Origin: a virus
Length of the DNA: 64,000 nt
IMG/VR virus record: IMGVR_UViG_3300027733_000028
Coordinates: 124,001-188,000 of that record
Reading direction: 5' to 3' (one strand)
Positions within the stretch are counted from its first letter, which is position 1; each line of letters starts with the position of its first letter. This document shows positions 4,523-51,904 of the stretch, piece by piece. A program made the position numbers and the translations under genes. Under the pieces are notes generated by a model. The model was not told the DNA's origin. It saw only the letters and a program-made list of their open reading frames with translations, and did not search any database.

Positions 4523-4762
4523 ATGTTCAAGAAATTCTTTCAATTTATAAGTGAAGGCAAAAAACCAAAACCGCATGAGATCCAACAAGCTGACCCTCAA
4601 AGTCCTCCTGTAGATCCATCAATAGTAACTAAATGCCCTAAGTGTGGAAGTACTGGTATGATTTGCGATTGCTATACTGATGATTATTATAATGCAAAGC
4701 TGCCTCAACAGGCACCAAGACCTAATAAAAAAGTAAAACCTAAAACGAAAAAAGATGAATAA
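4523..4762 (+). CDS. Small CTS-tagged protein with Cys cluster
   Basis: 79 residues. The N-terminus MFKKFFQFISE matches the capsid-targeting-like leader found in this window (compare MFKKFRQFINE at 51350), with predicted cleavage after Glu11 (ISE/G). The remainder is Pro/Lys-rich with CPKCGS...CDC around residues 38-50, a possible zinc knuckle. If the tag works as in T4 this is a small internal head protein. Function beyond that unknown. Confidence 0.6.
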   Translation: MFKKFFQFISEGKKPKPHEIQQADPQSPPVDPSIVTKCPKCGSTGMICDCYTDDYYNAKLPQQAPRPNKKVKPKTKKDE

Positions 4763-5045
4763 ATTCGAACAATTCATAGAGAAACATTTTAACAAATTAG
4801 CTTTATTTTTGTTGATTGTTACTTTCCTAAATACATGCGGAAACCCAAACAAAGTTACAAACAAACGTTTAGATGCTTTAACAACTAAGATTGATTCTTT
4901 ACAATCAATTACTGTTAATATAAAAGATCTTCAAATCGAAGGACTTAAAGCCGAAAAACGAATGATACAATCAACCGATCGTAAAATGTTAGACGTTAGT
5001 CGTCAAACAGAAATCGATAAAGAGATTGAAAAACTTTCCAAGTAA
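4755..5045 (+). CDS. Membrane-anchored coiled-coil protein
   Basis: 96 residues. A hydrophobic segment (about 15-28, ALFLLIVTFL) is followed by a long charged heptad-like region. Overlaps the previous gene by 8 bases. Two terminators follow directly, so it closes its transcription unit. A spanin-like or anchor role is possible but not shown. Confidence 0.6.
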   Translation: MNKFEQFIEKHFNKLALFLLIVTFLNTCGNPNKVTNKRLDALTTKIDSLQSITVNIKDLQIEGLKAEKRMIQSTDRKMLDVSRQTEIDKEIEKLSK

Positions 5046-5053
5046 TATATAAA

Positions 5054-5080
5054 AGAACCGAGCAATCGGTTCCTTTTTTG
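5054..5080 (+). terminator. Rho-independent terminator
   Basis: GAACCGA-GCAA-TCGGTTC, a perfect 7-bp stem with a GNRA loop, then CCTTTTTT. It sits 10 bases after the stop of the preceding gene. Confidence 0.85.
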
Positions 5081-5089
5081 TTAATAATT

Positions 5090-5115
5090 AGGAGATCTAA
5101 ATGATCTCCTTTTTG
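5090..5115 (+). terminator. Second, tandem rho-independent terminator
   Basis: GGAGATC-TAAAT-GATCTCC, a 7-bp stem, followed by TTTTTG. The tandem with the terminator just upstream isolates the units on either side. Confidence 0.8.
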
Positions 5116-5117
5116 CA

Positions 5118-5126
5118 TATAAATAA
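5118..5126 (+). promoter_or_regulatory. T4-late-like promoter TATAAATAA
   Basis: TATAAATAA lies immediately after the double terminator and 11 bases before the next ATG. It matches the T4 late -10 consensus TATAAATA; no -35 is expected for that class. Confidence 0.6.
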
Positions 5127-5137
5127 TATACATAAAA

Positions 5138-5515
5138 ATGAAAGTTACCAAAAGCATTAAATTAGAAGATTATCTTTTCCTTGAAATCGAAAGAATTATC
5201 AATGAAGATAATTCTATAGAAAAACACTTTTACTTAAAAGATGACGAAAATAAAATTCGTCAGAAATTAGCAGTATTAAGCGATCTAAGATGGTCATCTC
5301 ATAATCCAATGGCATTGGATAAATTTTTTAAAATATCAAAACAATATAAGGTGCCTATAACAAATAACATCAATAAAGGATTGGATTTCGAACATGAAAT
5401 AAGTATTCAAAAGAGATTTAATTGTTTCAGCCGAACATTCAAAATTAGAGTAACTAGATTAACCAATCAAACAGCCAGAAATACAAGAAATGCAATACAG
5501 AATATACTTGGATGA
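5138..5515 (+). CDS. Hypothetical protein, 125 aa
   Basis: Not recognised. First gene after a double terminator and a TATAAATAA box. Basic C-terminal part (residues 95-120), no membrane segment. The start MKVTKSIKLEDYLFLE only loosely resembles the capsid-targeting leader and lacks a proper (L/I)xE site. Overlaps the next gene by 26 bases. Confidence 0.6.
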   Translation: MKVTKSIKLEDYLFLEIERIINEDNSIEKHFYLKDDENKIRQKLAVLSDLRWSSHNPMALDKFFKISKQYKVPITNNINKGLDFEHEISIQKRFNCFSRTFKIRVTRLTNQTARNTRNAIQNILG

Positions 5516-5963
5516 TGTAAGAACTCCAGTCGATAAAGACTCTTGGGTGATTGTTAGAAATTATGAAAAATTCATAGCTAAAGTTAGCGAATTAGGATTG
5601 AAGAACATTTCAACAATCTCATTAGATCATGATTTAGGCGATGGAGCTATGAGTGAATACTTCAATAATGTATCACCAAATTATAAGTTAGATTATAACA
5701 ACATCAATGAAAAAACAGGAATGGATTGTACTAAATGGTTGATTAATCATTTTTACGAAATCAATCCTAAGAGAACGGAAATGACACGTTTTGATAGAAA
5801 ATCTGTTCCATTAATATTTCCTACCGTATATGTACATTCTGCAAATCCAATTGGAAGCGCTAATATGATGGGATATATCAATAACTTCTTAATGAATGAA
5901 GGTGCTCCTCAAACATGTGTTAGAGTTCGTATCGATCATACTATGGAAACTATCATCGAATAA
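5490..5963 (+). CDS. cREC-type (cyclic-phosphate processing receiver) domain protein
   Basis: 157 residues. The order LDDVRTP (7-13), SWVIVRNYEKF, SLDHDLG (about 46-52), EKTGMDCTKWL and VHSANPIGSANM matches the receiver-like cREC family proposed to process cyclic phosphates in nucleotide repair or signalling contexts. The paired Asp residues (8, 9) and the DHD motif form the expected acidic pocket. In a phage such a protein could act on RNA ends or on defence signals; this is inference. Confidence 0.7.
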   Translation: MQYRIYLDDVRTPVDKDSWVIVRNYEKFIAKVSELGLKNISTISLDHDLGDGAMSEYFNNVSPNYKLDYNNINEKTGMDCTKWLINHFYEINPKRTEMTRFDRKSVPLIFPTVYVHSANPIGSANMMGYINNFLMNEGAPQTCVRVRIDHTMETIIE

Positions 5964-5986
5964 ATAAAGAAAATATACTTACGTCA

Positions 5987-6784: not shown

Positions 6785-6791
6785 TCAATGA

Positions 6792-6801
6792 GATAAATAT
6801 A
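6792..6801 (+). promoter_or_regulatory. Late-type promoter box GATAAATATA
   Basis: GATAAATATA 17 bases before the ATG at 6819, one of several GATAAATA boxes preceding probable late genes here. Confidence 0.5.
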
Positions 6802-7689: not shown

Positions 7690-7696
7690 GTAACTT

Positions 7697-10102: not shown

Positions 10103-11416
10103 ATGAAAAGATTATTAAAGTATAAAGACTTTGTTGAAGTTTTAAGCGAAGGTGCTAGACTTCAAGCATTGGTCGATGATCTTCCTTTGTTTGAAGGTGG
10201 TGCATACGGTCACCTATCACATCCTTTCGAAGACATGAATTTGACTATGGCAGATTTGCATACGATGATACAAGATACTGTTAATGGATCTTTTGGTCCT
10301 GAGAATTTTGTTCAAGAGAAAACTGATGGTCAGCAAATATCAATATCTTGGAAGGATGGTAAATTGATTGCGGCAAGAAATAAAAGTCATCTAAAGAATG
10401 CTGGCGAAGCCGCATTAGATTCTTCTGGTATTGCTTCTATGTTTGCTGGTCGTGGTGATATCGAAATTGCCTATAATGCAGCAATGGAAGATCTTCAAAA
10501 ATCTATTGGCGGTTTATCAGATAAAGATAAATTAGCCTTCTTTGCTAATGGTAAGAAATTCGTTTCATTAGAAGTTATTACGCCTATCACACAAAATACA
10601 GTTCCTTATGGTCAAAATATGCTTGTATTCCATGGAGTACTTGAATATGATGAATCCGGAAATGTTATCGATGAAGATAAACAAGCTGCTAGAAATCTTG
10701 GTAAATCAATTGCTGATGCGAATCTAGCTGCACAGAAAATGTTCTTTGTTAGAGGACCTCAAGATATGGATATTAAACCATTTCCTAATACCGCAAAAAG
10801 ATCTTCATATTACGAAAAGAAATACAACGAAATCCTTACTACTTGTGGATTAACTGATGCATCTACCGTATTTGATTATGCAATAGGTATGGCTAGATTA
10901 GTACTTGAAGAAGAAGCTAAATCTGCAAAGGTTGAAATCCCTGCATCTGCAATCGATGGTTTGGCTGCACGTATAGCAGATATTAATAAGTCTTTTTCGG
11001 TTTCGTTAATCAAGAAAGAACTTGGTGATAATGCTGATTGGTATTTTGATCTAGAAAAGAAAAGTGCCAAACAACTTAAACGTAAAATTTATGCTCCTCT
11101 TGAATCGCTTTTCCTTGAAATAGGAACAGAATTCATGAAGAATATGTCTACCTTCCTATCTGCAAATCCTACGGAAGCAGCCGAAGCAATGAAAAATGAA
11201 ATTGATTCTACTATCGCAAAGATTCGTACAAATGGTGACGAAAAAGACGTAGAAAAATTAGAACACGAATTAACTAGAGTTACTGCTGCTGGTGGTGTCG
11301 AAGGATTGGTTCCTACTGAAGGAATTACATTCGTTTATAAAGGTAAACTTTATAAGTATACTGGAATTTTCGCTCCACTACATCAAATACGCTCTATTTT
11401 AGCTTATAAAAAATAA
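10103..11416 (+). CDS. CTS-tagged nucleotidyltransferase/ligase-fold protein
   Basis: 437 residues from the ATG at 10103; the frame is open from 10007 but the upstream part spans a terminator, and MKRLLKYKDFVEVLSE is a capsid-targeting-like leader with predicted cut after Glu16 (LSE/G). EKTDG (72-76) fits the KxDG motif I of covalent nucleotidyltransferases, Glu157 in FVSLEV motif III, VEGLV (about 399-403) motif IV and the Lys-rich strand after it motif V. It could be an RNA or DNA ligase or related adenylyl enzyme packaged in the head. Substrate unknown; Lys73 is the predicted nucleophile. Confidence 0.65.
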   Translation: MKRLLKYKDFVEVLSEGARLQALVDDLPLFEGGAYGHLSHPFEDMNLTMADLHTMIQDTVNGSFGPENFVQEKTDGQQISISWKDGKLIAARNKSHLKNAGEAALDSSGIASMFAGRGDIEIAYNAAMEDLQKSIGGLSDKDKLAFFANGKKFVSLEVITPITQNTVPYGQNMLVFHGVLEYDESGNVIDEDKQAARNLGKSIADANLAAQKMFFVRGPQDMDIKPFPNTAKRSSYYEKKYNEILTTCGLTDASTVFDYAIGMARLVLEEEAKSAKVEIPASAIDGLAARIADINKSFSVSLIKKELGDNADWYFDLEKKSAKQLKRKIYAPLESLFLEIGTEFMKNMSTFLSANPTEAAEAMKNEIDSTIAKIRTNGDEKDVEKLEHELTRVTAAGGVEGLVPTEGITFVYKGKLYKYTGIFAPLHQIRSILAYKK

Positions 11417-11612: not shown

Positions 11613-12068
11613 ATGACCGGATTGTTCAAAATTAATGAAGATTCTGCCTTTGGACCGGGAATGATGTTTGGCATCCCTGGTCCTGGTCCAAAAGCGGATT
11701 CTCCAAAACAACCTTCTGATAAAAAGAAGGAAAAAGGAATTACCCCGAAACAAATGAAGAAGACTATACCATCATTCAAAAAATTTAACGAAGGTTTTGC
11801 TTACGTTAAAGATCCTTTCAGAGAAGGTGAAAGGATGTTCAGTAAAGATATTAAAATAGACAATGTTGCTGTTATTAATATCAATGGTTCTATTGATGGA
11901 TTAGATGCTACACACACAGCAATCGTATCCGTTATAACTAGTACTATGGATAACTTCGGCGAAGATCTTGGTAAAGAACGAATCATATTAACACAAAAAG
12001 ATTTTACCACTAAAGCAGAGGCTGAAAGCTTTTTGAAGAAAATTGAAAAAGAAATTATCTACAAATAA
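11613..12068 (+). CDS. CTS-like protein with two candidate tags
   Basis: 151 residues from 11613. The first residues read MTGLFKINE (possible INE/D site at 9), followed by a Gly/Pro-rich stretch; residues 48-60 read MKKTIPSFKKFNE, a much better tag. Translation could therefore start at 11754 (104 residues), or the first 60 residues may all be removed. The C-terminal domain (about 75-150) has VAVININGSIDGLDATHT and an alternating beta/alpha pattern, not recognised. TAATG overlap with the next gene. Confidence 0.6.
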   Translation: MTGLFKINEDSAFGPGMMFGIPGPGPKADSPKQPSDKKKEKGITPKQMKKTIPSFKKFNEGFAYVKDPFREGERMFSKDIKIDNVAVININGSIDGLDATHTAIVSVITSTMDNFGEDLGKERIILTQKDFTTKAEAESFLKKIEKEIIYK

Positions 12069-12655
12069 TGAAGAAATTTAAAGAATTCGTTACAGATATT
12101 CTGATATTTGAAAAGATTGATGGAAAGGAAGTTTGTATATTTCCTGGACGTTTTCAACCTTTTCATAATGGACATATTGAAGCAATACATCGAACAGCAA
12201 AAGCTTTCGGAGTTCCTGTTATCCCGGTACAAATCAAATCAAAGAACGAAAATTCACCTTTCCCAGATTCTCTTCTAGAAAAGATTGGTAAGGCCATGAT
12301 TAAAGAATTTCCTTTCATTGAAGATTATGTACTTTATCCTCCTGATAAGAAAACTGTAGTACCTCAAATGGTTAAATTCCTTCAAGAAAAGGGTTATGAT
12401 CCAATTGGTATTGGTTGTGGAAGTGATCGTTTAAGAGATTATGAACGTCAAGTTGAATATCTAACATCACCGAAATCGGATGTTCAAGTTAATAAATTTT
12501 CGGTTGCAATGGTTGATGAACGAAGAGCCGATGGTCCTTCAGGAACAAGAGTTCGTGAAGCACTTATGAATGATGATAAAGAGGCATTCGAAAAAGCTAC
12601 ACCAAGATCACTACATCCTTTCTATAAAGAGCTACAAAAATACCTTAAAAAATAA
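12068..12655 (+). CDS. CTS-tagged NMNAT-like nucleotidylyltransferase
   Basis: 195 residues. After the leader MKKFKEFVTDILIFE (candidate IFE/K cut at 15) comes a complete cytidylyltransferase-like fold: GRFQPFHNGH (27-36), the HxGH nucleotide-binding motif, and SGTRVR (158-163), the second phosphate-binding motif. Length and motifs fit archaeal-type nicotinamide mononucleotide adenylyltransferase (NadM). It would make NAD+ from NMN and ATP. Co-occurrence with ADP-ribosyltransferases, which consume NAD+, is suggestive. CTP-type substrates cannot be excluded. Confidence 0.8.
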   Translation: MKKFKEFVTDILIFEKIDGKEVCIFPGRFQPFHNGHIEAIHRTAKAFGVPVIPVQIKSKNENSPFPDSLLEKIGKAMIKEFPFIEDYVLYPPDKKTVVPQMVKFLQEKGYDPIGIGCGSDRLRDYERQVEYLTSPKSDVQVNKFSVAMVDERRADGPSGTRVREALMNDDKEAFEKATPRSLHPFYKELQKYLKK

Positions 12656-12671: not shown

Positions 12672-14195
12672 ATGAAACCTATTAAAAACTACAACGAATT
12701 CATTAATGAAGCATGGATTGGTCCATTCGTATTCAATGAAGACATGACCGATGATGAACTAAAGGCTATATACCAAGGTGCATTAGATGGATTTGCTTAT
12801 TGGCAAAAAGGATTTGAATATCCAAAAGCCGATTACAAAAAGGCATATACTGAAATTGGAAAGATTCTAAAGAAAAGAGGAGTTAATGTTGATGAATCTG
12901 TTAATGAAGGATCTAACGACGAAATGGTAAAACGGAGTTGTGTCGAAAGACTTTCTCAATTCTTTAGAGTTAGTCCAAACGCATTATCACATTTCAAATT
13001 TGATGGAACCGATAACATTAAAGCTTTAACAAAAGCTCTTAATTCTACATCAGATGAAGGAACCGAGGCATACTATAAAGTAGCAATCCGAGTTGGAAAA
13101 CAAGATGCCGGTATCGAAGAATCTATCGAGGAATCAGCTAAATGTCCTCCTATATACATTCCGGTATTATCTAATATCGATCATACTAGAATAATCAAAT
13201 GGATGGATATTCATTTTGATAGTCATAAATGGGATATGAAGAAATCCGGTGCTGGTTTTGAAATCGATGTTGAAAAACTATCTAGTCAAGAACAAGATGA
13301 TTTATTAAAATATTTACACTCACAAGATTATTTAGAAGAATCTGTTAATGAAGCTTGGAGTAATATAGACACCGACAAAGCTGCCGATCTAATCAATAAA
13401 GAAATTGGAGTTAATCCTGGTTATTTCTTTATTGGCGATGAAGATTTATGCATCAAATTTGATAAATTATGGACTGAAAAGAAATACAAAGTAGCTCTTA
13501 ATATGTTATTTTTTATTGAAAATCTAAAAGATCTTAAAGACTTCATAAAACAAAACCAAAACGAATCGGTTAATGAAGCAGTATCACCAGAAGTACATCG
13601 TATGGTTAATAAATTTGTAACCGGTATGGCTGATAAATATGATTATTCTTTACAAGATGCAGTTTATGCAATACTAGACGTTTTAAAAAGTCAAAAATAT
13701 AAAGGATTAAAAGAATCTGTTAATGAAGGTGAAACTTTAATATTTGATGAGATCGGAGAAAACCTAACCAAACTTCAGGATCAAATAGATGCAATGCTTA
13801 AATGGGAAATCACCGATCAAAAATGGATCGTTGCACTTAAAACAATTCAATCTGCCTGTTCTAAATTGGAAGATACTGTCGCTAAAGCTGATCAGAAATT
13901 AGGTGCTATTGAATATAATGAATCCATTAGTGAAGGTCTTTTAAAATTAGATGAAGGTGCTGTTAAACAATTTGAGATCGATTATAAAGACATGGAAAGT
14001 AGTATCAAACGAGGTATTGGTTGGATTGATCCTGAATATGTGGCTGAAACTTGGGAGAATTCTTCAGATACTATTGATTATGAAATAGTTAGAAATGAAA
14101 TTCTTACTCGTCTAATTAAAGCCGATCTTCTTTATACATCACTAGATGGAGAAACTAAAGGTAAAAGAATTACCAACATAAGTCAAATTAAATAA
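12672..14195 (+). CDS. CTS-tagged polyprotein with repeated (V/I/L)xE sites
   Basis: 507 residues from the ATG at 12672, chosen because MKPIKNYNEFINE is the canonical tag (cut after Glu13); upstream in-frame residues overlap the NMNAT gene. The same site recurs inside: ESVNE/G 79, ESVNE/A 227, ESVNE/A 302, ESVNE/G 352, ESISE/G 421 and LDE/G 428, with a weaker IEE near 154. Sites lie 50-75 residues apart between compact acidic, helical segments. This looks like a chain of small proteins separated by prohead-protease sites. None of the segments is recognised. The stop codon overlaps the next start. Confidence 0.75.
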   Translation: MKPIKNYNEFINEAWIGPFVFNEDMTDDELKAIYQGALDGFAYWQKGFEYPKADYKKAYTEIGKILKKRGVNVDESVNEGSNDEMVKRSCVERLSQFFRVSPNALSHFKFDGTDNIKALTKALNSTSDEGTEAYYKVAIRVGKQDAGIEESIEESAKCPPIYIPVLSNIDHTRIIKWMDIHFDSHKWDMKKSGAGFEIDVEKLSSQEQDDLLKYLHSQDYLEESVNEAWSNIDTDKAADLINKEIGVNPGYFFIGDEDLCIKFDKLWTEKKYKVALNMLFFIENLKDLKDFIKQNQNESVNEAVSPEVHRMVNKFVTGMADKYDYSLQDAVYAILDVLKSQKYKGLKESVNEGETLIFDEIGENLTKLQDQIDAMLKWEITDQKWIVALKTIQSACSKLEDTVAKADQKLGAIEYNESISEGLLKLDEGAVKQFEIDYKDMESSIKRGIGWIDPEYVAETWENSSDTIDYEIVRNEILTRLIKADLLYTSLDGETKGKRITNISQIK

Positions 14196-15097
14196 TGCTA
14201 AAATTTAATCAATTTGTTAACCTGATTCTTAATGAAGGAGGTAATGCGATTGAGGATGCTCGTCCTATTTTGCAATCTGAAATAGATGCAACGTATGCAT
14301 ATGTTATTAAAAACATATATCCTCTTATTGGTCTTGCCGAAGATTTTGCTAAACCAATAGGATCTTTTAAGAAAAAAGCACCTGATCAAACATCTGGTGA
14401 TATCGATATTGCCGTTCTTGCTGATAGAATTGCCGGAGAAAATGGAATTGATTTATCTCAGGTTCTTGAATTCATCGCATCTAAATTGAGTGATTATTCT
14501 CCGGTCGTTAGTAAAGGGTTTCAACAAGTTTCTATAGGTGTTCCAATTGAAGGTGATAAGAAAAAAGGTATTGCACAAATTGATTTGATGCTAACAGATA
14601 ATCTGAATTTTTCCTCCTTCATGTATCATTCACCAGACTTTACTCAAGCAGAATCCAAATATAAAGGACTTTACCGTAATATTCTACTAATGAATATCAT
14701 TAGCAATTCGAAACGAGAAACTACCAAGCTAACCGACAAAGGTGAAATTGAAGAATATCGTTCATATGTACTTCGTCTAAATCAAGGTGTTGTTGCGGTA
14801 ACCAAATCGTTTATAGGTAAGAAAGGGTTAGTTAAGAATCCTACATTACTCAACGATCAAGATAAATTTATGTCTAATACTCCAGAAGTTATTGCGGAAT
14901 TGGCATTCGGTCCGGATGTTCCCATTTCAGAAATAATGACTTTTGAAGATACTTGGAGACATACAATGGATTCTAAATTTATTCACCAAGATAAATTAGA
15001 TGCAATTCTAAAAGATTTCAGAACTAGATTACTTGCTGCTAAAGTTCCTTTCCCTATTGAATGTGTAGAACAATACCCAAATATATTTACATCATGA
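14195..15097 (+). CDS. CTS-tagged pol-beta-type nucleotidyltransferase
   Basis: 300 residues. Leader MLKFNQFVNLILNE with predicted cut after Glu14 (LNE/G). The DNA polymerase beta-like pattern is present: Gly56-Ser57, then Asp69-x-Asp71 (SGDIDIAV), then a third acidic residue, Asp130, in AQIDLML. The family transfers nucleotides to RNA, protein or small molecules; examples include antibiotic adenylyltransferases and MNT toxins. A second tagged protein at 46905 has the same layout. Target unknown. Confidence 0.75.
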   Translation: MLKFNQFVNLILNEGGNAIEDARPILQSEIDATYAYVIKNIYPLIGLAEDFAKPIGSFKKKAPDQTSGDIDIAVLADRIAGENGIDLSQVLEFIASKLSDYSPVVSKGFQQVSIGVPIEGDKKKGIAQIDLMLTDNLNFSSFMYHSPDFTQAESKYKGLYRNILLMNIISNSKRETTKLTDKGEIEEYRSYVLRLNQGVVAVTKSFIGKKGLVKNPTLLNDQDKFMSNTPEVIAELAFGPDVPISEIMTFEDTWRHTMDSKFIHQDKLDAILKDFRTRLLAAKVPFPIECVEQYPNIFTS

Positions 15098-16620
15098 TGT
15101 TAAAATACAATCAATTCGTTCAATGGTTAAATGAATCAGCTATGGCTCCAGTTGAATGGAATGAGAAGCCTAAATATCGAGTACAATTTCTTAGTTTCTT
15201 AGAAGATAAAAATAAAGAACTTATAATTGATGGTAAATACAAATCCTCATATCCATTTCTAACTTTCAAAGTTTCTGATATTTCTAATTTAGAAGATATA
15301 CAATCGTTTATAAAAAGTGATAAAGCGGTTTCATCTAAAGAACCTTTAATGGATGTTGATGCAGTTAAAATACCATTAACACATTTGCTAAAAACTGGAT
15401 TATTTACTAATCAATCAAAGACTTCAACTGATACCGATACTAAAGAAGGTATGGTTGTTTATTTCTACTACAATCAAGACGCAGACATTCTTTCTATAAA
15501 AAATTCAGAAGCAGTTGCATTAGTAGATAACATTCCGAATGGAGATTTACATCCAAAAGCTATGGATAAAATTAGATTATGGTTATCTGATTTTGATAGA
15601 GAAAATGAAGAACAAATCGCTCAATGGAAATCTACCGGTAATGTAATGGCTGAATTTTTATCGAATGGATATCATTTAGACCGAAATGATATACTTATAA
15701 AAGTTAGAGATAGGGCAAGAATACTTTCTGGTTTAGCACCGGATAATTGGTGTCCTGGAGACGTTTACTTAGTAGATCCTTCTGCTAAATCTACCATACT
15801 TGATTATGTAAATAATGCAAAAACCATAGGAGAATTAAATTTATTATTCAATGATTCATTCACACCAAGAGAAACCTCAGCTGAACCTATGGGATCTCTT
15901 GTAGCGGTTTCTCTTAAACAACAAGTAGCTAGATTAGGTAGAGCAAAAGAATTCCTAAAAACAATATCCACAAAAGATTCAGTATATAACCTTACAAAAG
16001 AAGAATTGGTTAAATGTAAAACTGATGAATCTTGGGCAAAAGCAGAAATTTCTAATTATCAACAACTCTTAGGAACTATCGCTTCTAAATCAGAGATAAC
16101 CGTTCATTATAACCCTGGAAGTGTAGATCGTATTAAACCGGCTTTATTACCTAGTAAATTGGCTGCCATAAAATTAACTTATCATCTACTTACTTTACCA
16201 AAAGAATCACCGGAAGATCTTGATGATAATCTTCTAAGTGTTCTTCAATTTGGACTTAAGCAAGCCGACAAATCAACAAATCCTCCATATTTCAAAATCA
16301 CCGGAAGTATAAAAGGTGAAGGTAGTTTAGAGTTCTTTCATGGAGGAGATACTTTAAAGTTATTAATTGGAGGAATTGGTAACAAAGAAGCCAAGCTAGT
16401 TATTTTAGATTTACCTAGTAGATTAGATATTGTTCTGTTTTATTACGTTTCAATTGGCGATACTGCATATGAAATTCGTTTAAGGTCGGCAACTACCAAT
16501 AGTAAACAAGCCGGATTAGAATTTGAAAGAAAAGATATTATCGGAAATCTTGTAGAAGATCCTCAAGGAACAACATCTAAAATAGATAAATTATTCCATC
16601 AAAGATCCTCGATGAAATAA
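15094..16620 (+). CDS. CTS-tagged protein, possibly nuclease-like
   Basis: 508 residues from the ATG at 15094, which overlaps the upstream stop as ATGATGA-type coupling; 15097 is an equal alternative. Leader MMLKYNQFVQWLNE, cut after Glu14. Around residues 218-285, PDNWCPGDVYLVD and, after a gap, SLVAVSLKQQ resemble the D...SLK core of PD-(D/E)XK nuclease-like phage proteins. The C-terminal part is beta-rich. Function uncertain. Confidence 0.6.
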   Translation: MMLKYNQFVQWLNESAMAPVEWNEKPKYRVQFLSFLEDKNKELIIDGKYKSSYPFLTFKVSDISNLEDIQSFIKSDKAVSSKEPLMDVDAVKIPLTHLLKTGLFTNQSKTSTDTDTKEGMVVYFYYNQDADILSIKNSEAVALVDNIPNGDLHPKAMDKIRLWLSDFDRENEEQIAQWKSTGNVMAEFLSNGYHLDRNDILIKVRDRARILSGLAPDNWCPGDVYLVDPSAKSTILDYVNNAKTIGELNLLFNDSFTPRETSAEPMGSLVAVSLKQQVARLGRAKEFLKTISTKDSVYNLTKEELVKCKTDESWAKAEISNYQQLLGTIASKSEITVHYNPGSVDRIKPALLPSKLAAIKLTYHLLTLPKESPEDLDDNLLSVLQFGLKQADKSTNPPYFKITGSIKGEGSLEFFHGGDTLKLLIGGIGNKEAKLVILDLPSRLDIVLFYYVSIGDTAYEIRLRSATTNSKQAGLEFERKDIIGNLVEDPQGTTSKIDKLFHQRSSMK

Positions 16621-17252: not shown

Positions 17253-17687
17253 ATGATACTAAACTACCAAGAATATCTTGCTTTAGAAGAAGCCGCTAAG
17301 TACTCAATCGATAAAAATCATTCTCTAATTGCCGTTCATGGTCTTTCATTGAGAGATCAAATACACGTTTGGCATTGGCAAACCGAGGTTGGCGATCAAC
17401 ATAAAGCCTTAGGAGAATTTTACGAAAACTTATTAGAAACTCTCGATCAATTAGTAGAAGCTATAATGGGAAAATACGGAAGAATTTCTGTTAAGACGGT
17501 TGGATCTCCTAAACCTCTTGTTGATCTACAAGATCTAAAAAACATTGACGCTTTTGTTGATGAATACATAAAACTTTTTGACAATTTCAGAAACACAACT
17601 TTCAAAAATGATACAGAAATTCAGAATATCATAGATGAAATCGTTGCAGAAGCTCTTAAATTGAAATATCTCCTAACAATGTCTTAA
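17253..17687 (+). CDS. CTS-tagged ferritin-like helical protein
   Basis: 144 residues. Leader MILNYQEYLALEE (possible LEE/A cut at 13). The body is a helical bundle: HVWHWQTEVGDQHKALGEFYENLLETLDQLVEAI (about 38-71) has the His/Glu spacing seen in Dps-like and other ferritin-like phage proteins. A metal-binding or oxidative-stress role is possible. Last gene of the first capsid-targeted cluster. Confidence 0.65.
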   Translation: MILNYQEYLALEEAAKYSIDKNHSLIAVHGLSLRDQIHVWHWQTEVGDQHKALGEFYENLLETLDQLVEAIMGKYGRISVKTVGSPKPLVDLQDLKNIDAFVDEYIKLFDNFRNTTFKNDTEIQNIIDEIVAEALKLKYLLTMS

Positions 17688-19088: not shown

Positions 19089-19113
19089 ATAGATATTAAA
19101 ATCAAATTATCAA

Positions 19114-19395
19114 ATGGAAAACAAATCAAATACCGTCTTTGGAAAACTTAAATGGTTCTTTACCGAACTTATGAAAATGTACAGCAGTGAAAAATCATAT
19201 TTCTCTAAGAAGAGAGTTGAATCTGGAATTGCTTTTGTCATATCTCAATGGGGTATGATTTGGTTCTTAATAAAGAAAATCGATGTACTAACTGCATCCG
19301 ATATGTTAATTTGGGCAGGTATTGAATTTGCCGTTGCTGGATATATGATTAATCAAATCCAAAAAGAGAAGAAGACCGAAGATACTTCTAATTAA
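19114..19395 (+). CDS. Small membrane protein, holin-like
   Basis: 93 residues with two hydrophobic segments (about 36-53 and 60-78) and a charged C-terminus, the general layout of class II holins. There is no adjacent endolysin, so the holin label is only a possibility. Confidence 0.5.
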   Translation: MENKSNTVFGKLKWFFTELMKMYSSEKSYFSKKRVESGIAFVISQWGMIWFLIKKIDVLTASDMLIWAGIEFAVAGYMINQIQKEKKTEDTSN

Positions 19396-44544: not shown

Positions 44545-44655
44545 AAAAAAGCCCTCCAGCGTTCAAACTCTGAGTTTCAGGAATAAATAGAAATATAAAC
44601 GAACAAAAAAGCGCGCAGCGGCTTCCACCTCTGAGTACCAAGAATAAATGAAATC
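44545..44655. repeat. Two degenerate direct repeats before the second CTS operon
   Basis: Two units, period 61, share in order AAAAAAGC, CAGCG or AGCG, CTCTGAGT (44568-44575 and 44629-44636), CA and GAATAAAT. The first contains the palindrome AAACTCTGAGTTT. Each ends in a late-promoter-like core, so the pair may be tandem promoters for the CTS operon. Confidence 0.55.
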
Positions 44656-45025
44656 AATACCTACATATCACGAATTCCTTAATGAGACCGTCTCATTTAA
44701 TACCGATACTACTGGTCGTGAAGATTGGGATGATGATCTAAAGAAACATTCTAGAGATTTTACTCAATCTATAGTAATAATGAGTCCGATGGATTTCTTG
44801 AAGAGAGTTCAATATCACCGATTTGAGATTAATAAATCTAAAGTGGCTAATTATGTTAAAGAATTTCGTGGTAATGTCAAAGGAATTCCAGCACCAACCA
44901 TGTGGTTCTCTGATAAGTTTCAATACGATAAAGGACTTGCTCCTGCTTTTCATGATGGATCTCATCGCATGCTAGCTCTACAAGAAGTAGGGATACGAGA
45001 AGTTCCGGTTAAAATTATATACTAA
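44648..45025 (+). CDS. CTS-tagged ParB-like-fold protein
   Basis: 125 residues. Leader MKSIPTYHEFLNE, predicted cut after Glu13. The C-terminal HDGSHRMLALQEVGIREVPV (102-121) matches the ParB/Srx-like nucleotide-binding core, here DGSHR in place of GxxR. The fold occurs in CTPases, nucleases and kinases. First gene of the second capsid-targeted cluster. Confidence 0.7.
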   Translation: MKSIPTYHEFLNETVSFNTDTTGREDWDDDLKKHSRDFTQSIVIMSPMDFLKRVQYHRFEINKSKVANYVKEFRGNVKGIPAPTMWFSDKFQYDKGLAPAFHDGSHRMLALQEVGIREVPVKIIY

Positions 45026-45026
45026 G

Positions 45027-45647
45027 ATGAAAAACATTCAAACATACGAAAGCTTCTTAAATGAACTTCGACATTCAAAAGAGTTTTTAATAGACCTATT
45101 TTCTAAAATGGATATTTTAGATAATGATGTATACAAAAACATTTTAATCCATTACATTGAACAACCACAAAATTTAGAAAAACAAGAGTTCATTGATTTA
45201 GTTTCATGGTTGATCCAGAATAAAAACAAGTACAGTGAAGTACTAAAGCCTAAAAATGGATATGCATACAGAGGAACTTCAATAACTCCTGATATGTTTC
45301 ATAAATTAAAAAATGGATTATCAAAAAAAGAAGGTGGTATAAGCATATTTAACTTTCCTTATACCAGCGAATCAGAAGCACAAAGTTGGACATATGATTA
45401 TAAAGTAGCAATGAGGTTTGCGGATAAAGGTCTTTTAAATAACCCTAGATTAGAAAAAGGAGCTAGACCAGCTATTTTAAGAGCTAAGATAGATGATACA
45501 TTTGTAGGTAATCCTAAGTTGACTGGTCCCATAGCTGACCGATTAAGTCTGAAGTCCGAAAAGGAAATATTTCATTTAGGGAATTCTATAAAAGATGCTG
45601 AATGGATGATATTCTCAGCCGATATAGAATTAGGAAAATTTAATTAG
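45027..45647 (+). CDS. CTS-tagged ADP-ribosyltransferase-like protein
   Basis: 206 residues. Leader MKNIQTYESFLNE, cut after Glu13. R-S-E class ART pattern: Arg82 in YAYRGTS, PYTSESEAQSWTYDYKVAMRF (111-131) as the STS-like strand and helix, and E178-x-E180 in KSEKEIFHL as the catalytic ExE. T4 Alt is a head-packaged ART with the same residue logic. Predicted to modify host proteins soon after injection; target unknown. Confidence 0.75.
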   Translation: MKNIQTYESFLNELRHSKEFLIDLFSKMDILDNDVYKNILIHYIEQPQNLEKQEFIDLVSWLIQNKNKYSEVLKPKNGYAYRGTSITPDMFHKLKNGLSKKEGGISIFNFPYTSESEAQSWTYDYKVAMRFADKGLLNNPRLEKGARPAILRAKIDDTFVGNPKLTGPIADRLSLKSEKEIFHLGNSIKDAEWMIFSADIELGKFN

Positions 45648-45657
45648 TATAAAGACT

Positions 45658-46056
45658 ATGAAATCAATATCGACATATGATGAATTCTTAAATGAGTCTA
45701 TTCGTGCAGAAGAGGCTTATCGAGATACAGGAGCTATTCAAACCGTCATTGATGGAAAGAGAGATATGGGATTCATTACCATCAAATCATCGGTTGATGT
45801 GAGCGAAAAAGAATTCTGGACATTGGTGAAGATACACGATCTGAGTACCATTCACCTATCTGGAAATGAATATGATGCCTATATCTATTATCATAAAGGA
45901 GCCGAGCGAGGTGCCAGAGAGCTAGCGAAGATTGCTAACAAATACGGTGGATATCTATCACATGAAGCGACTGAACGAGAATCTCGTCGAATAGGCGAAC
46001 TTCTAGGTTACGATCGACGAGACATAGATGATTATATAAAGAAAAACTACAAATAA
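45658..46056 (+). CDS. CTS-tagged hypothetical protein, 132 aa
   Basis: Leader MKSISTYDEFLNE, cut after Glu13. The body is not recognised: central beta segment (IHLSGNEYDAYIYYHKG) and a charged helical C-terminus with RESRRIGELLGYDRRDIDD. Confidence 0.65.
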   Translation: MKSISTYDEFLNESIRAEEAYRDTGAIQTVIDGKRDMGFITIKSSVDVSEKEFWTLVKIHDLSTIHLSGNEYDAYIYYHKGAERGARELAKIANKYGGYLSHEATERESRRIGELLGYDRRDIDDYIKKNYK

Positions 46057-46211
46057 TGGATAATGGAAAACGTAATCAATTAAAACCTGTGAGAATCGCT
46101 GATGTTAATAAGTTGGTGGCTAATGATCCGAGGATTCTTATTAAAGTTAATCATAAAGGTGGAAGTGGAGTTTCTCTTATGAACACTAATAAAATTAAAG
46201 ACCGAAAATAA
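46056..46211 (+). CDS. Small protein, 51 aa
   Basis: TAATG overlap with the preceding gene; reads MDNGKRNQLKPVRIADVNK... and ends NTNKIKDRK. Basic, no tag, not recognised. Ends two bases before the next gene. Confidence 0.5.
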   Translation: MDNGKRNQLKPVRIADVNKLVANDPRILIKVNHKGGSGVSLMNTNKIKDRK

Positions 46212-46213
46212 GA

Positions 46214-46918
46214 ATGAGAAAGATAGCCTTATATGAGCAATGGATAAATGAAATTGGTGATTCATCAGCCAAGCCATTCAAATGGAGTAGTCCTGTTATC
46301 GCTGTTAATATGAAGAGATGGATAGATGATTGTATCGAAGGAGCTGCAGACAAGAAGATGAGTGGAACTCAAGAAGATATTTACTATAAAACTAAAACAT
46401 TTAGATATGAATTCCGATCGGATGTGACTAATACAAATTATCATGTACACATCGGTGGATTTGTTGGTAGAAATATCTGGATTGCCTTTCAAGGAGAAAA
46501 ACCTAAAGATTGGGTTGGATATCATATAATTGCCGGATTAGGATTTGGTGTTGAAGGAGATTTCGATAAAACTACTAATCTTAATGAACAATTCCGAGTA
46601 ATGGCAACCGTTACCGAATGTGCCATTGATTTTCTACAACGATTCTTGGATGATGGACGAATCAAGATTGATAAATTTCACATGAAACCTAAGGCCGATC
46701 ACGAAGAACAAAAAGGAATAGATTCTCGTCGAGCTAAACTATATGCCCCTTATATTAAAGCCGCATTCCGCAAACTCAAAACGAAGAAGGATTATTACAT
46801 AGATCAAGAGGCAGATGGATTCGTTCTTCATTTCGGAAAGGTCATAATGAACTCTCCTTATTCCACTTCAGTATTAGCATCAACCTTTGAAAATGAAGAA
46901 TCCAATGAAATCAATTAA
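46214..46918 (+). CDS. CTS-tagged hypothetical protein, 234 aa
   Basis: Leader MRKIALYEQWINE, cut after Glu13. Body soluble alpha/beta (YRFEFRSDVTNTNYHVHIGG-like strands around 60-85); not recognised. Overlaps the next gene by 14 bases. Confidence 0.65.
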   Translation: MRKIALYEQWINEIGDSSAKPFKWSSPVIAVNMKRWIDDCIEGAADKKMSGTQEDIYYKTKTFRYEFRSDVTNTNYHVHIGGFVGRNIWIAFQGEKPKDWVGYHIIAGLGFGVEGDFDKTTNLNEQFRVMATVTECAIDFLQRFLDDGRIKIDKFHMKPKADHEEQKGIDSRRAKLYAPYIKAAFRKLKTKKDYYIDQEADGFVLHFGKVIMNSPYSTSVLASTFENEESNEIN

Positions 46919-47975
46919 GCTATATGAAGCCTTCTTAACAGAAGGAGGCTGGGCAACAACCAAAACACAAGGAACCGTTCTGACTCCAGCTGTTATCGCT
47001 GAGGTTGTGAAGGTTATGGATCTGATCAATACGGGATTCAATGGACATTTGAGAGAGCTTGAACTTCCCACTCTAGATATTCTAAAACCTATTGGCAGTG
47101 GAACTTGGTGGAGTGAAGATGTGACCGAACAACCAGACAAAACTTATGGAGATGTCGATTACATGGTTGCCTATCCCACTTTGAAGCTCACTGCTGGTCG
47201 TGATAGAGAAGATGAGATTGCTACGGTGAAGCTATACAATACCGAGCTGCTCATGTGGTTAGAGGAAGAAGGTATCACCGATGTAGATATTGATGAGACG
47301 AAGAAAATATCTTCGGATGTTTCTCTTAAGTTAATTGCGATCGTTCCCTTTAATGGAACTGATGCATATGTTCAGGTTGATATGGTTGTTACTCACAAAG
47401 AGTATAGTGATTGGGCAGTATTCCGTATGACTCCTATTCGTAACGTTAAAGGTTTTGTGCTAGGAAATCTCTACTCTTCATTTGGTGAAGTTCTAGATTT
47501 GTCTATTCAGGCAAGAGGAGTAAGAGCTAAATTTGAAGGTCAGGTTATGAAGCCTTATTCTAAACGAGCTAATGTTGAGGATCGCATCATCTCACAAAAT
47601 GCTGAATCATTCATGACCGATATCGCTCGTTTCTTTTGGGAACAGAGCGGAACAGATATTCCATTCACCGCTACTCCTATCGAATCTTGGAAGGGAATGG
47701 ATCGCAACTCTCCTCGATTCGAAGATCTAGCCGAAGGAATTCGTCTGGTTGCCGAGACACTAGGTCAGCTAGACGAATTTGGAACTACTATTAAATACAA
47801 ATCAGCTGCTGATCTACTAAATGCAGTGATTGCTCAATATACGAAGAAGATGATGGAAGCTTATAATTCTGCTAAATTTGATAAGGCAGAAACTCCAGCA
47901 GCAAAAGCCATTATCACTAAAGTTAGAGCAACCATTGACGAATATATCAGTCTGGCTAAATCACTACTTACATAA
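46905..47975 (+). CDS. CTS-tagged pol-beta-type nucleotidyltransferase
   Basis: 356 residues from the ATG at 46905, where the tag MKSIKLYEAFLTE begins (cut after Glu13). Gly64-Ser65, Asp83-x-Asp85 (GDVDYMV) and Asp159 in VQVDMVV reproduce the nucleotidyltransferase triad, with the same spacing style as the tagged protein at 14195. C-terminal helical domain of about 150 residues. Adenylylation or nucleotidylation of a host factor is a reasonable guess. Confidence 0.75.
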   Translation: MKSIKLYEAFLTEGGWATTKTQGTVLTPAVIAEVVKVMDLINTGFNGHLRELELPTLDILKPIGSGTWWSEDVTEQPDKTYGDVDYMVAYPTLKLTAGRDREDEIATVKLYNTELLMWLEEEGITDVDIDETKKISSDVSLKLIAIVPFNGTDAYVQVDMVVTHKEYSDWAVFRMTPIRNVKGFVLGNLYSSFGEVLDLSIQARGVRAKFEGQVMKPYSKRANVEDRIISQNAESFMTDIARFFWEQSGTDIPFTATPIESWKGMDRNSPRFEDLAEGIRLVAETLGQLDEFGTTIKYKSAADLLNAVIAQYTKKMMEAYNSAKFDKAETPAAKAIITKVRATIDEYISLAKSLLT

Positions 47976-47982
47976 AAGTAAT

Positions 47983-48357
47983 ATGTTATACTATTCACCA
48001 AAAATTGCAGTCGGAGAATCGACTGTAGCAGGCAGAGGTGTATTTGCCATAGCCGATATAGAGGCTGGAGAGGTACTTGAAGAGTGCCACTTCTTTTTAC
48101 TAACTAATGGTAATCATTCAGCTATGGATGATACTTTAAAAGAGATGGTATTCGCATGGCCGGCATATAATGATGTTCATCAATTTGCTGTTGTACTAGG
48201 CAGTGGAACTGTTTATAATCATTCATATGAAAACAATGCAACCTGGGATACTGATGAAGCTAAATGCTGTTTCAGATTTTCTTCTACTCGAGACATAAAG
48301 GCCGGTGAAGAGATATTCACAAATTATAACCGAAGCGGAGGAAATCACTTTGATTGA
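47983..48357 (+). CDS. SET-domain protein
   Basis: 124 residues from the ATG at 47983. STVAGRGVFAIADIEAGEVLEE (13-34) is the SET N-terminal SAM region; YNHSYENNATW (near 85-95) the NHS motif; AGEEIFTNYNR the GEEI...Y pseudoknot end. Short stand-alone form, as in bacterial SET proteins that methylate lysines. No capsid tag despite sitting within the tagged operon. Confidence 0.85.
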   Translation: MLYYSPKIAVGESTVAGRGVFAIADIEAGEVLEECHFFLLTNGNHSAMDDTLKEMVFAWPAYNDVHQFAVVLGSGTVYNHSYENNATWDTDEAKCCFRFSSTRDIKAGEEIFTNYNRSGGNHFD

Positions 48358-48365
48358 TAAATATA
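48356..48365 (+). promoter_or_regulatory. Late-type promoter box GATAAATATA
   Basis: Overlaps the stop of the SET gene and lies 18 bases before the ATG at 48384. Confidence 0.5.
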
Positions 48366-48383
48366 AAAACACACAAAAGCTAA

Positions 48384-49301
48384 ATGGCTAATTCAACATA
48401 CACAGATCTTCAAGTTCTTATTCAACGAATAAGAGGTAAGCGAGTTCTTCTTCTTACAACATCTAATAGATGGAGTGGTGATGAAGGAGGAAAACCTAAA
48501 TCTACTCAATTGGCTGAGTTAATAGCCAGATCTTTATACGACGATTCAACGGATTCTACTCTTTGTAAAGTAATAGATATTCCATCTCTCAATATTCACA
48601 ACTGTGAAGGTAATGTATCTTCCGGAAGTGGTAATGGTTGTGGAGTTAAGGCTGCTGCCCTAAAGGATACCACTAAAAATCCTACTGGTAATCTTCGTTG
48701 TTGGGCTTCTATTAATAATGCCGATGATGAGTTATGGAAAGTTAGTAATGCTATATTCGAATCAGATGTAGTCCTCTTCTTTGCTTCTACAAGATGGGGT
48801 CAGGCAAATGCATTCTATCAAAAACTTATCGAACGTCTAACTTGGTTAGAGAATCGTCACACTACTCTTGGTGAATCTAATCTACTAGGAAATATTGAAG
48901 CTGGTGGATTCTTCATTGGACACAATTGGAATGTAGAAGATGTAATGAATACTCAAAGAACGGTACTTCAGTATTTCGGATTTCAAGTTCCACCTCAACT
49001 TTTTCTTCACTGGCAATGGACTAATAGTGATACTAACGAAACTCAGAAAGGATATGAAGCTGATGCTAAAGACTTCAAAGAGGTTTGGAAAGTTGGAACA
49101 TATCCTTTAGAGGAAAGTTTTAATCGTTGGTTGAATGAAGCTGGTTATGATGCTGGTTCTAGAAAACCTACTCCGGAAGAGGTTGAAATGTGCAAATCTC
49201 CAGAAGGATTTAATCAGATAAACCACTGCAAAGCTTTAGGACTTACTCCTCGTGAAGATGGAACCAAAGCCAAATCTAAAAAATATGGTGGTGACGCATA
49301 A
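48384..49301 (+). CDS. Flavodoxin-like NAD(P)H-dependent reductase
   Basis: 305 residues. RVLLLTTSNRWSG, KSTQLAELIARSL and the later SDVVLFFASTRWGQANAFYQKLIERL (about 130-155) follow the flavodoxin-like FMN reductase pattern. NCEGNVSSGSGNGCGVKAAAL (74-94) adds two or more Cys, suggesting a bound metal or disulphide. Not tagged, but in the same operon. Confidence 0.7.
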   Translation: MANSTYTDLQVLIQRIRGKRVLLLTTSNRWSGDEGGKPKSTQLAELIARSLYDDSTDSTLCKVIDIPSLNIHNCEGNVSSGSGNGCGVKAAALKDTTKNPTGNLRCWASINNADDELWKVSNAIFESDVVLFFASTRWGQANAFYQKLIERLTWLENRHTTLGESNLLGNIEAGGFFIGHNWNVEDVMNTQRTVLQYFGFQVPPQLFLHWQWTNSDTNETQKGYEADAKDFKEVWKVGTYPLEESFNRWLNEAGYDAGSRKPTPEEVEMCKSPEGFNQINHCKALGLTPREDGTKAKSKKYGGDA

Positions 49302-50083
49302 TGAAACCGATAAAACTTTTTGAAGATTTTATTAATGAATTCGATACAGGTAAAGTATTACTAGGTGATCCTTCTTTATTGGGTAGACCTAATAAATGGG
49401 AAGATCTCGGAATAGAGTTTGAACCTAATACTGCTGACAAAACTCAATTAATACAATTGATAAAAGATTGGATTTTTAAAGTAAAGGCAGATCCAAAGAT
49501 GGGACATATCCTTAAAGAATTGCTGCCCTTAAAAAAGAAGTTTCCGAAAATATTAGAACCATCTGAAGGTAGATCCGTCTATGAAGGTACTTCTCTTTAT
49601 AGAGGAACTATAATACCATTTAAAGAAGTGTTATCACTAAAGGGTAAATGGAAACGTAACGACGCGGTTGATATTTTTGGTGGTAGCCTAAATCTCAGTA
49701 CATCATATAATTGGGAAAGTATTAATAGAAAGGGATTCACTTCGTTTACACCATCTATCGAAATAGCGGCCACTTTTGCAGGAAGCCTTAGTTCAGAAAA
49801 TTATAACGAAATTGTAGCATCTAAAACGGTTGTTAAAAGATTATTAGATGGATCCATTGATGGTATGATTCCGATGATTATTAAAATTAAAGACACACAT
49901 CCCTTAGCAATTATGAATCCGGTGTTTACTCAATCAATTCACGAATTCATGAATGAATTTGAGGTATTTGTTGTTGGAAATAAAATCCGGGTTGATGAAG
50001 TTATAATTCCAGGATGGCATTACTACGAAAGAGATGCTAAAGAATTAGGAGTAGATCTTACAAAATATTTTAACATACAATGA
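49301..50083 (+). CDS. CTS-tagged ADP-ribosyltransferase-like protein
   Basis: 260 residues. Leader MKPIKLFEDFINE, cut after Glu13. Arg101 in LYRGT, KGFTSFTPSIEIAATFAG (144-161) as the STS strand plus helix, and Glu219-x-Glu221 in NEFEVFVVG as the ExE. Complete R-S-E layout. A second predicted head-packaged ART beside that at 45027. Shares one base with its upstream neighbour. Confidence 0.8.
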   Translation: MKPIKLFEDFINEFDTGKVLLGDPSLLGRPNKWEDLGIEFEPNTADKTQLIQLIKDWIFKVKADPKMGHILKELLPLKKKFPKILEPSEGRSVYEGTSLYRGTIIPFKEVLSLKGKWKRNDAVDIFGGSLNLSTSYNWESINRKGFTSFTPSIEIAATFAGSLSSENYNEIVASKTVVKRLLDGSIDGMIPMIIKIKDTHPLAIMNPVFTQSIHEFMNEFEVFVVGNKIRVDEVIIPGWHYYERDAKELGVDLTKYFNIQ

Positions 50084-50688
50084 AACATATCCAAGGTTTT
50101 AATACATTCCTTAATGAAGGCGAAGGTTTATTTGCTGATGCCGGTAAAGGATCTACTAAAGGAATTGGATATGGAACGCCAGAAAAAGCTAAAGAGACTA
50201 TTAAGATCGCTGACAAAATGAAGGCAGACGATCCAGGAAAAGCCGTTCAAATCGTTAATGCCATGCTCAATCGAGCTAAATACTCAAATGGTCAGAATGA
50301 TGGCATGAGAGCAGCAATTCCCATCTTTCAAAAATGGTTAAAGGCCAATCAAGCATCTGAATCATTTTTAGGAGTTGATGAATTCATTCTAGAAAAACTT
50401 TGGCAAAAGGAAGTAGAATCTTCTCACCTTAACGAAATTGAATATGACTCATCAACTGAAGAACTAACTATTACTTTTAACAATGGAGACCGCTACAGAT
50501 ATTATGAAGTTCCTAAATCCATCTTCCGAGAATTTGCCAATGAGAAAACTATTCTAGGAAAGATTGGTGGAGGAATTGTCAAAGGAGCCAAGAAGCTATT
50601 TGGTAAGGATATTGACGAAGGTACATATGGTAAAAAATTCTGGTCACTCATTCGTCGAGGTGGCTATCAATACGAAAAACTCTCATGA
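50080..50688 (+). CDS. CTS-tagged protein with C-terminal KTSC domain
   Basis: 202 residues. Leader MKHIQGFNTFLNE, cut after Glu13. A helical domain (about 30-95) precedes further candidate sites, FILE/K near 108 and HLNE/I near 122, then the KTSC domain: SSHLNEIEYDSSTEELTITF through RRGGYQYEKL. The internal sites may make it a second small polyprotein. Confidence 0.7.
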   Translation: MKHIQGFNTFLNEGEGLFADAGKGSTKGIGYGTPEKAKETIKIADKMKADDPGKAVQIVNAMLNRAKYSNGQNDGMRAAIPIFQKWLKANQASESFLGVDEFILEKLWQKEVESSHLNEIEYDSSTEELTITFNNGDRYRYYEVPKSIFREFANEKTILGKIGGGIVKGAKKLFGKDIDEGTYGKKFWSLIRRGGYQYEKLS

Positions 50689-51350
50689 AAGAAATAAAAT
50701 TATATGAGCAATGGCTCAATGAAATCGATGGTCCTGCAGATGGATCTCTATTCGGTACATCCGGAGTAGATTTTGGATTCATCGGTCTGCAAGATCCAGG
50801 AGACACACCAAATTCGTTTGAACCTAATATGGTTGAATCCTTTATTATTGATCTTCTTCAAAGACACAATAATACCGTTCCTTCTCCTGGCACACTTACC
50901 GTCGAGTATCTTGAAGATATCGAAAAGGTACAAACCGGAATGAGTGATAAAGATCGATCATTTGTTCAGGCAGTTAATAATAATCCTATGGCTTTTCATG
51001 TTGAAGATGCCAAGAAAGCTGGTATTGATCTAGATGGTAAATGGTTAACTGAATGTTGGGATTATGCTACCAGTGTAGCAGGTACTGCAAAAGATATTTG
51101 GAAAGTAAAACGTCCATTTGAATTAAGCTCAAAAGTCAAGGGGTTGGTTCCTACTAAATCCTTCTCATTTCCTTCAACTAATGCGGCCGGATCTTTTTAT
51201 GTAGCAAAAAAGGTTGCAGAGAAATATCCTCAATTGAAAGAATCTCAAATGGAAGTGGCTACTCAAATAGCAAATTCACGAGTTGTTGCCGGTGTGCATC
51301 ATCCATTAGATATTGCCGTTGGAAAAATGTTAGCCTTAGGCTTATTATAA
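50685..51350 (+). CDS. CTS-tagged PAP2-like phosphatase
   Basis: 221 residues. Leader MKEIKLYEQWLNE, cut after Glu13. PAP2 motifs: KVKRP (140-144), FPSTNAAGS (162-170) and Ser198-Arg199...His205...Asp209, a perfect SRx5Hx3D. In the middle motif the usual PSGH reads PSTN, so the acid-base His is absent; activity may be altered. No TM segments, unlike membrane PAP2 enzymes. Confidence 0.75.
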   Translation: MKEIKLYEQWLNEIDGPADGSLFGTSGVDFGFIGLQDPGDTPNSFEPNMVESFIIDLLQRHNNTVPSPGTLTVEYLEDIEKVQTGMSDKDRSFVQAVNNNPMAFHVEDAKKAGIDLDGKWLTECWDYATSVAGTAKDIWKVKRPFELSSKVKGLVPTKSFSFPSTNAAGSFYVAKKVAEKYPQLKESQMEVATQIANSRVVAGVHHPLDIAVGKMLALGLL

Positions 51351-51904
51351 TGTTCAAGAAATTTAGACAATTCATTAATGAAGATATTCATATACCTTCC
51401 GGTAAATGGATAGACACTGACCTTAAAGGTCAGGATGATGATATGATGCAACTCATATGGACAATGTATACTGACACATACTCTAAACAAGGATTAGATT
51501 TCTCTGCCGATGATTATGCTGAACTTAAAACTAAATACCAAGCAACATTCTTAAAGGATGTTGACCATGATCGTATTCCAGATGCCTTTATTATATACAA
51601 GAAAACGAAGTATGGAAATAAGATTGCTCTTCTAGGAACTAATGATAAGAAGACTGCAAAACGAGATCTTCTAGAAAAAACTATTTCATTACTTAAAAAT
51701 CCTGGTTGGTTGTTAGAGGCCTCTCGTAAAATGGAAGAGATTCTTTCAAATTCAAATGTTCCTTATATTGAAGATCCTGAAATCATTGCTGATATTGTCG
51801 GTAAAGACAAGAAACCTGAAATGGTTAAACATGGATATTATACAAGACTTCTTTCAAAAACACCAAAGCGTATCTTAAAACGCATGTATGGTAAGGTCAA
51901 ATAG
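51350..51904 (+). CDS. CTS-tagged hypothetical protein, possibly GNAT-like
   Basis: 184 residues. Leader MFKKFRQFINE, cut after Glu11. The body (DHDRIPDAFIIYKKTKYGNKIALLGT around 64-89) has an alpha/beta pattern somewhat like small acetyltransferases, but no clear acetyl-CoA loop. Last gene of the second cluster. Confidence 0.6.
   Translation: MFKKFRQFINEDIHIPSGKWIDTDLKGQDDDMMQLIWTMYTDTYSKQGLDFSADDYAELKTKYQATFLKDVDHDRIPDAFIIYKKTKYGNKIALLGTNDKKTAKRDLLEKTISLLKNPGWLLEASRKMEEILSNSNVPYIEDPEIIADIVGKDKKPEMVKHGYYTRLLSKTPKRILKRMYGKVK

Follow-up and report, generated by a model that had tools for sequence, protein, structure and literature searches.

Bacteriophage T4 carries the internal proteins IPI, IPII and IPIII together with Alt, and in its T-even relatives the protein bodies vary behind a conserved leader (PMC3012670). 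Experimental mapping in IPIII indicates that residues 4 and 7 control targeting while residues 8 and 10 control cutting (PMC9026906). Propeptides of the T4 type are about 10-19 residues long and end in L/I-x-E. The leaders of all four T4 proteins, which are cut by gp21, are short and N-terminal, with aromatic residues at six and three positions before the Glu at the cut (E-6 and E-3) and an aliphatic residue at E-2. In giant phages related to phiKZ many proteins are packaged, mostly behind long propeptides (PMC5694885). A related prohead protease likewise cuts the inner-body and ejection proteins of phiKZ and SPN3US on the C-terminal side of a Glu, however their propeptides mostly exceed 100 residues, end in S/A-x-E and share no short common leader. 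Here we describe a leader that is short and ends in (L/I/V)-N-E, found on many genes of the virus record IMGVR_UViG_3300027733_000028 (207,040 bases; 207 kb). The analysis started from a 64,000-nucleotide stretch of this record (the window, positions 124001-188000), and the remainder was read too. At a probability of roughly 80%, the sequences suggest that this leader is a T4-type capsid-targeting propeptide expanded to about 42 proteins.

An earlier interpretation of the window from its letters alone (the sequence-only reading) had placed the leader on about seventeen genes. An open reading frame (ORF) with a leader is indeed present at all 17 positions, with a weak leader at 17253 and one at 11754 that depends on an internal ATG (genes are named here by their start in the window, other positions being marked as genome). 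About ten of the 17 closely fit MKxIxx(Y/F)xx(F/W)(L/I)(N/T)E, with degenerate leaders on genes 4523, 51350, 10103, 11754, 12068, 14195, 15094 and 17253. The reading also held that Glu is residue 13 in eight of nine genes from 44648 to 50685; Glu is at this position in all eight listed genes of that run, and in the polyprotein 12672, whereas the figure of nine does not stand, as the list holds eight.

The leader was then counted across the 297 ORFs called genome-wide. A profile trained on nine window leaders matches 30 of them at a threshold of at least 8 bits, versus 0.35 expected from shuffled N-termini and 0.31 from internal positions. Among 184 held-out genes outside the window, 18 reach the threshold, one of them spuriously, leaving 17 additional genes where about 0.2 would be expected. 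With degenerate forms added by eye, the total is 42 tagged genes, or about 14% of ORFs, 25 of which lie outside the window; ten of these follow one another without a gap in the series at genome 84424-88841. The figure of about seventeen was thus an understatement, and the second set of leaders that had been looked for exists in the rest of the genome as well as in relatives. In G002 (254 kb), a record that is nearly identical but longer, the first 14 kb hold about four further tagged genes. Behind the leader the sequences are unrelated, as the sequence-only reading had maintained: BLASTP finds only two related pairs among the 42 bodies.

When the leaders are aligned on Glu, information content is highest at E-9 (Ile), E-6 (Phe/Tyr), E-3 (Phe/Trp), E-2 (Leu/Ile/Val), E-1 (Asn) and Glu itself. 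All but one of the 42 have Glu within about 20 residues and L/I/V/F/M ahead of x-E, and the helical hydrophobic moment is 0.445, compared with 0.269 (standard deviation 0.018) in shuffled leaders. In the T4 record, internal proteins II and III start MKTYQEFIAE-A, and residues 4, 7, 8 and 10 of T4 IPIII correspond to E-6, E-3, E-2 and E, which are conserved columns of the phage leader. Unrelated bodies behind a common leader and a gp21-family protease are further features shared with T4. In contrast to T4, which has about four tagged proteins, the leader here is typically 13 residues long with an additional Ile at E-9 and a nearly invariant Asn before Glu, one of the tagged proteins is a polyprotein, the protease is apparently fused to a scaffold-like region, and no sequence relation was noted between the passengers and T4 internal protein bodies. 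A leader-like start, MKTFKEFIKE, also occurs at 19101-19130 on the minus strand of the T4 record NC_000866, outside the internal proteins read here.

The gp21-like prohead protease that had been predicted to lie elsewhere in the genome, and whose absence had been named as evidence against capsid targeting, was found by search. It is a 633-residue protein encoded outside the window at genome 52920-54821, with a match to PF03420 (Pfam S77) at genome 52977-53330 (E 1.6e-14) and to the PHROG head maturation protease family phrog_207 (E 5.6e-42). Its gene sits between those of the portal (E 7e-72) and the major capsid protein (phrog_138, E 7.5e-36), with a DNA end protector gene upstream of this block. 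The C-terminal 453 residues of the protease contain 25 [LIV]xE sites, as opposed to 9.7 in shuffles (maximum 19, n=500); because this part is so rich in such sites, the protein looks like a protease domain fused to a self-destroying scaffold. Protease lengths are similar in relatives.

Several observations make cleavage by this gp21-family protease the best inference for the role of (L/I/V)NE. The capsid protein starts M..(L/M)(L/I)NE in 34 of 34 relatives inspected, and in Chryseobacterium phage MA9V-2 the capsid protein holds WSEFINEA, which resembles the leaders of that phage, MKNFFSFINEA and MKTFTYFINEA. Ala, Ser or Gly directly follows Glu in 101 of 168 metagenomic leaders. Furthermore, [LIV]NE[AGS] occurs 1.05 times per 1000 residues in tagged bodies versus 0.26 in untagged proteins (p 0.004), and in the relative G032 (294 kb) the corresponding values are 1.95 and 0.26 (p 3e-8). 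Tagged proteins, including the polyprotein, are thus 4-7-fold enriched over untagged ones, and rearranged control motifs have no comparable excess in tagged bodies. The 12672 polyprotein contains four ESVNE(G/A) linkers. A 395-residue protein of G032 has a complete internal second leader, KVPTFKKFINES, where another relative, L103, has two separate tagged genes.

The leader pattern occurs in at least 119 viral contig stretches, versus 8 with the reversed pattern. A relaxed form is present in 22 of 22 related records, with up to 30 exact matches per record and 0-1 in reversed-pattern controls. PF03420 is detected at E 0.001 in 17 of the 19 leader-bearing records of at least 140 kb, 15 of which exceed the curated cutoff. 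G032 has about 48 tagged genes; its matches to the tagged bodies carry the leader on 15 genes by a strict rule and on most others by eye. The uncultured phage LR756500 (462 kb) has 11 tagged genes. The leader is kept in homologues that are 40-70% identical, and relatives' homologues of 10103, 12068, 14195, 15094 and 51350 have a clear one.

The canonical pattern has no match in T4, P-HM1, Moby, Mel-JY01, pT24, PTm1, MaF61, PAU or MA9V-2, suggesting that its exact form is clade-specific; the single match in Lak-B2 is out of frame with a stop. PAU and MA9V-2 carry leader forms of their own. Sphingomonas phage PAU, which has a related capsid protein, bears the leader MKTLxKLYE, likewise short and ending in Glu. 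It is found on 20 genes that cluster near those for portal, protease and scaffold, and for two of the 20 the annotation reads internal capsid protein. This leader differs in sequence, and neither the PAU record nor the papers found call these genes a leader set. In distant phages, namely Stenotrophomonas phage Moby and cyanophage P-HM1, the homologues of the tagged cytidylyltransferase have no leader and begin at or near the catalytic motif. From such comparisons, the leader is an added module.

Based on these features, the following mechanism is proposed. First, the tagged proteins would be made late. Next, the hydrophobic face of the leader helix (Ile E-9, Phe/Tyr E-6, Phe/Trp E-3) would attach the tagged proteins to the prohead core, and the docked proteins would become enclosed in the head. 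Cleavage by the gp21-family protease after (L/I/V)NE, in most cases with Ala/Ser/Gly following, would release the mature protein inside the head, and at least one polyprotein would undergo further cutting at its internal VNE sites. Finally, the released enzymes and small proteins would leave the head together with the DNA and take immediate effect in the host, while a subset near the portal gene may serve as core components.

In this proposal, packaging, cleavage and injection are inferred from sequence, and several points weigh against it. A separate gp22 scaffold was not identified in the genome, and the capsid protein is without a clear LxE at the T4 gp23 cleavage position (looked for near residue 65). 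Three of the 19 records in the protease comparison are near-duplicates and four are below or without the curated cutoff, and the co-occurrence of leader and protease may partly reflect shared ancestry, only leader-bearing records having been compared. A late-promoter-like motif (GATAAATA/GAATAAATA) stands ahead of the capsid, portal, endolysin-like and several tagged genes, including the 44648 cassette; its association with tagged genes is not significant, as 26 of 269 rotations score as high.

Among other explanations, the leader could be a tag for core assembly only, with proteins that build or fill the prohead core, similar to T4 gp67, gp68 and gp22, most of which would be degraded or kept back as the head matures, not injected. 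Four tagged genes (genome 47247, 47535, 48867 and 49191) lie directly upstream of the end protector, portal, protease and capsid genes, and the product of 47247 weakly matches internal head protein families (E 0.0098); some tagged proteins adjoining the head genes may be core components and not injected cargo. As an account of the whole set this is improbable, since many passengers are enzymes or enzyme domains, mutually unrelated and unlike scaffold. It is less likely still that the leader directs its proteins elsewhere, for instance to the tail, a replication compartment or a membrane, and resembles T4 by coincidence: an amphipathic helix could bind membranes or other partners, but a cut-site-like end, a small residue following the Glu, NE sites that are duplicated or internal, a capsid protein with the same motif and a gp21-family protease are unexpected for a plain sorting signal. 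A recent duplication of gene starts, or a translation-initiation element conserved as DNA, might be suggested by the place of the leaders at gene starts and by the nearly identical copies on the neighbours at genome 84424-88841. Either origin is very unlikely, because synonymous codons at conserved leader positions are mixed, mostly near genome usage, which indicates that the peptide and not the DNA is conserved, and because the bodies are unrelated, the leader persists in the diverged homologues and it recurs inside a fused protein.

Among the passengers, curated models support a cytidylyltransferase-like enzyme (12068), a KTSC protein (50080), a PAP2 protein (50685), a RimK-like ATP-grasp ligase (genome 60359) and, behind a weak leader, DUF5856 (17253). 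In 12068 the leader stands ahead of the catalytic GRFQPFHNGH, and the G032 homologue has a canonical leader. The body of 10103 has a relative in the C-terminal region of a cytidylyltransferase-like protein from a Microcystis phage. In Microcystis phage Mel-JY01 (L289:7365-9284), relatives of the neighbours 12068 and 10103 are fused in one protein of 639 residues, suggesting that the two act together. The products of 45027 and 49301 are possible ADP-ribosyltransferases, judging by motifs seen by eye; searches of PDB and phage proteins with both gave no support for this assignment, and AlphaFold run without alignments gave unusable models (predicted local distance difference test, pLDDT, 37.5 and 41.6). 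For these two, 2-4 close homologues were found. In G032, a single tagged protein matches ART-PolyVal below the cutoff (E 0.0011). As T4 Alt is a head-borne ADP-ribosyltransferase (PMC9026906), such passengers are plausible, not proven.

Table 1. Tagged genes, candidates and a promoter-like motif in the window (window coordinates).
Feature	Position	Strand	Remark
Tagged gene, leader MFKKFFQFISE (short form, Glu 11)	4523..4762	+	G032 homologue starts MSFKKFFQFILE
Tagged gene, degenerate leader MKRLLKYKDFVEVLSE	10103..11416	+	LR756500 homologue starts with canonical leader
Possible tagged gene, leader MKKTIPSFKKFNE; start uncertain	11754..12068	+	internal ATG; frame open from 11613
Tagged cytidylyltransferase-like enzyme, leader MKKFKEFVTDILIFE	12068..12655	+	PF01467 E 1.4e-8
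Tagged polyprotein, leader MKPIKNYNEFINE	12672..14195	+	ESVNE(G/A) at residues 77, 225, 300, 350
Tagged gene, degenerate leader MLKFNQFVNLILNE	14195..15097	+	G032 homologue MRNMLKFKDFVSTFLNE
Tagged gene, degenerate leader MMLKYNQFVQWLNE	15094..16620	+	G032 homologue MKMLKFKDFVLSLNE
Weak candidate MILNYQEYLALEE; DUF5856	17253..17687	+	profile 0.6 bits; PF19174 E 2.6e-16
Late-promoter-like motif GGAATAAATA	44580..44589	+	68 nucleotides ahead of 44648 cassette
Tagged gene, leader MKSIPTYHEFLNE	44648..45025	+	Glu at residue 13
Tagged gene, leader MKNIQTYESFLNE	45027..45647	+	ADP-ribosyltransferase-like motifs by eye only, unconfirmed
Tagged gene, leader MKSISTYDEFLNE	45658..46056	+	sub-cutoff cysteine methyltransferase family match; G032 homologue MKHIPTYDEFVNE
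Tagged gene, leader MRKIALYEQWINE	46214..46918	+	Glu at residue 13
Tagged gene, leader MKSIKLYEAFLTE	46905..47975	+	G032 homologue MRNLQLYNEWLTINE
Tagged gene, leader MKPIKLFEDFINE	49301..50083	+	ADP-ribosyltransferase-like motifs by eye only, unconfirmed
Tagged gene, leader MKHIQGFNTFLNE; KTSC domain	50080..50688	+	PF13619 E 1.6e-13
Tagged gene, leader MKEIKLYEQWLNE; PAP2 superfamily	50685..51350	+	PF01569 E 1.7e-7
Tagged gene, leader MFKKFRQFINE (short form, Glu 11)	51350..51904	+	G032 homologue MTQFKKYNEFVSE

Beyond the tagged genes (Table 1), the sequence has further features. A SET-domain protein without a tag is encoded within the tagged cassette at 47983-48357 (PF00856, E 2.6e-14), and the genes in a run at 281-3951 look, by eye, like enzymes of the glycosyltransferase, nucleotide-sugar and aminotransferase kinds. 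About 80 nucleotides ahead of at least 19 mostly small untagged genes stands a bipartite promoter-like motif, GTTAATAACTTT ... TTTATTCCA; it occurs genome-wide, for example upstream of window 57041, 57617, 60129 and 60742, with a coding-strand bias of 21 to 0, and is probably an early or middle promoter class. The gene at 51989-56956 encodes a phage protein of 1655 residues in which PKD domains occur together with type IX secretion domains of the CHU_C type. The host of this large T4-like phage is probably in the Bacteroidota, as related cultured phages infect Tenacibaculum, Chryseobacterium and Flavobacterium and one gene carries a type IX secretion domain.

A literature search, with most subscription journals outside it, found no paper on a short common leader on 40-50 proteins, on its polyproteins or on its spread in this group. 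It is reasonably likely that a widespread clade of large phages, probably with Bacteroidota as hosts, has turned the T4 leader into a general loading code, in which gain of the leader would add a protein to an arsenal of 40-50 that is loaded in advance; among these would be polyproteins that the head protease cuts in the capsid and possibly several ADP-ribosyltransferases. As cultured relatives exist, a direct experimental test would be easy. If this is correct, the phage lineage would be an example of cargo being recruited through the addition of one short leader, and for hundreds of uncultured phages the genome sequence would suffice to list the proteins placed in the host at time zero. Many candidate factors for host takeover and counter-defence could be catalogued in this way, the majority of them lacking a known domain, and the injected proteome of an uncultured phage would become readable from sequence alone.

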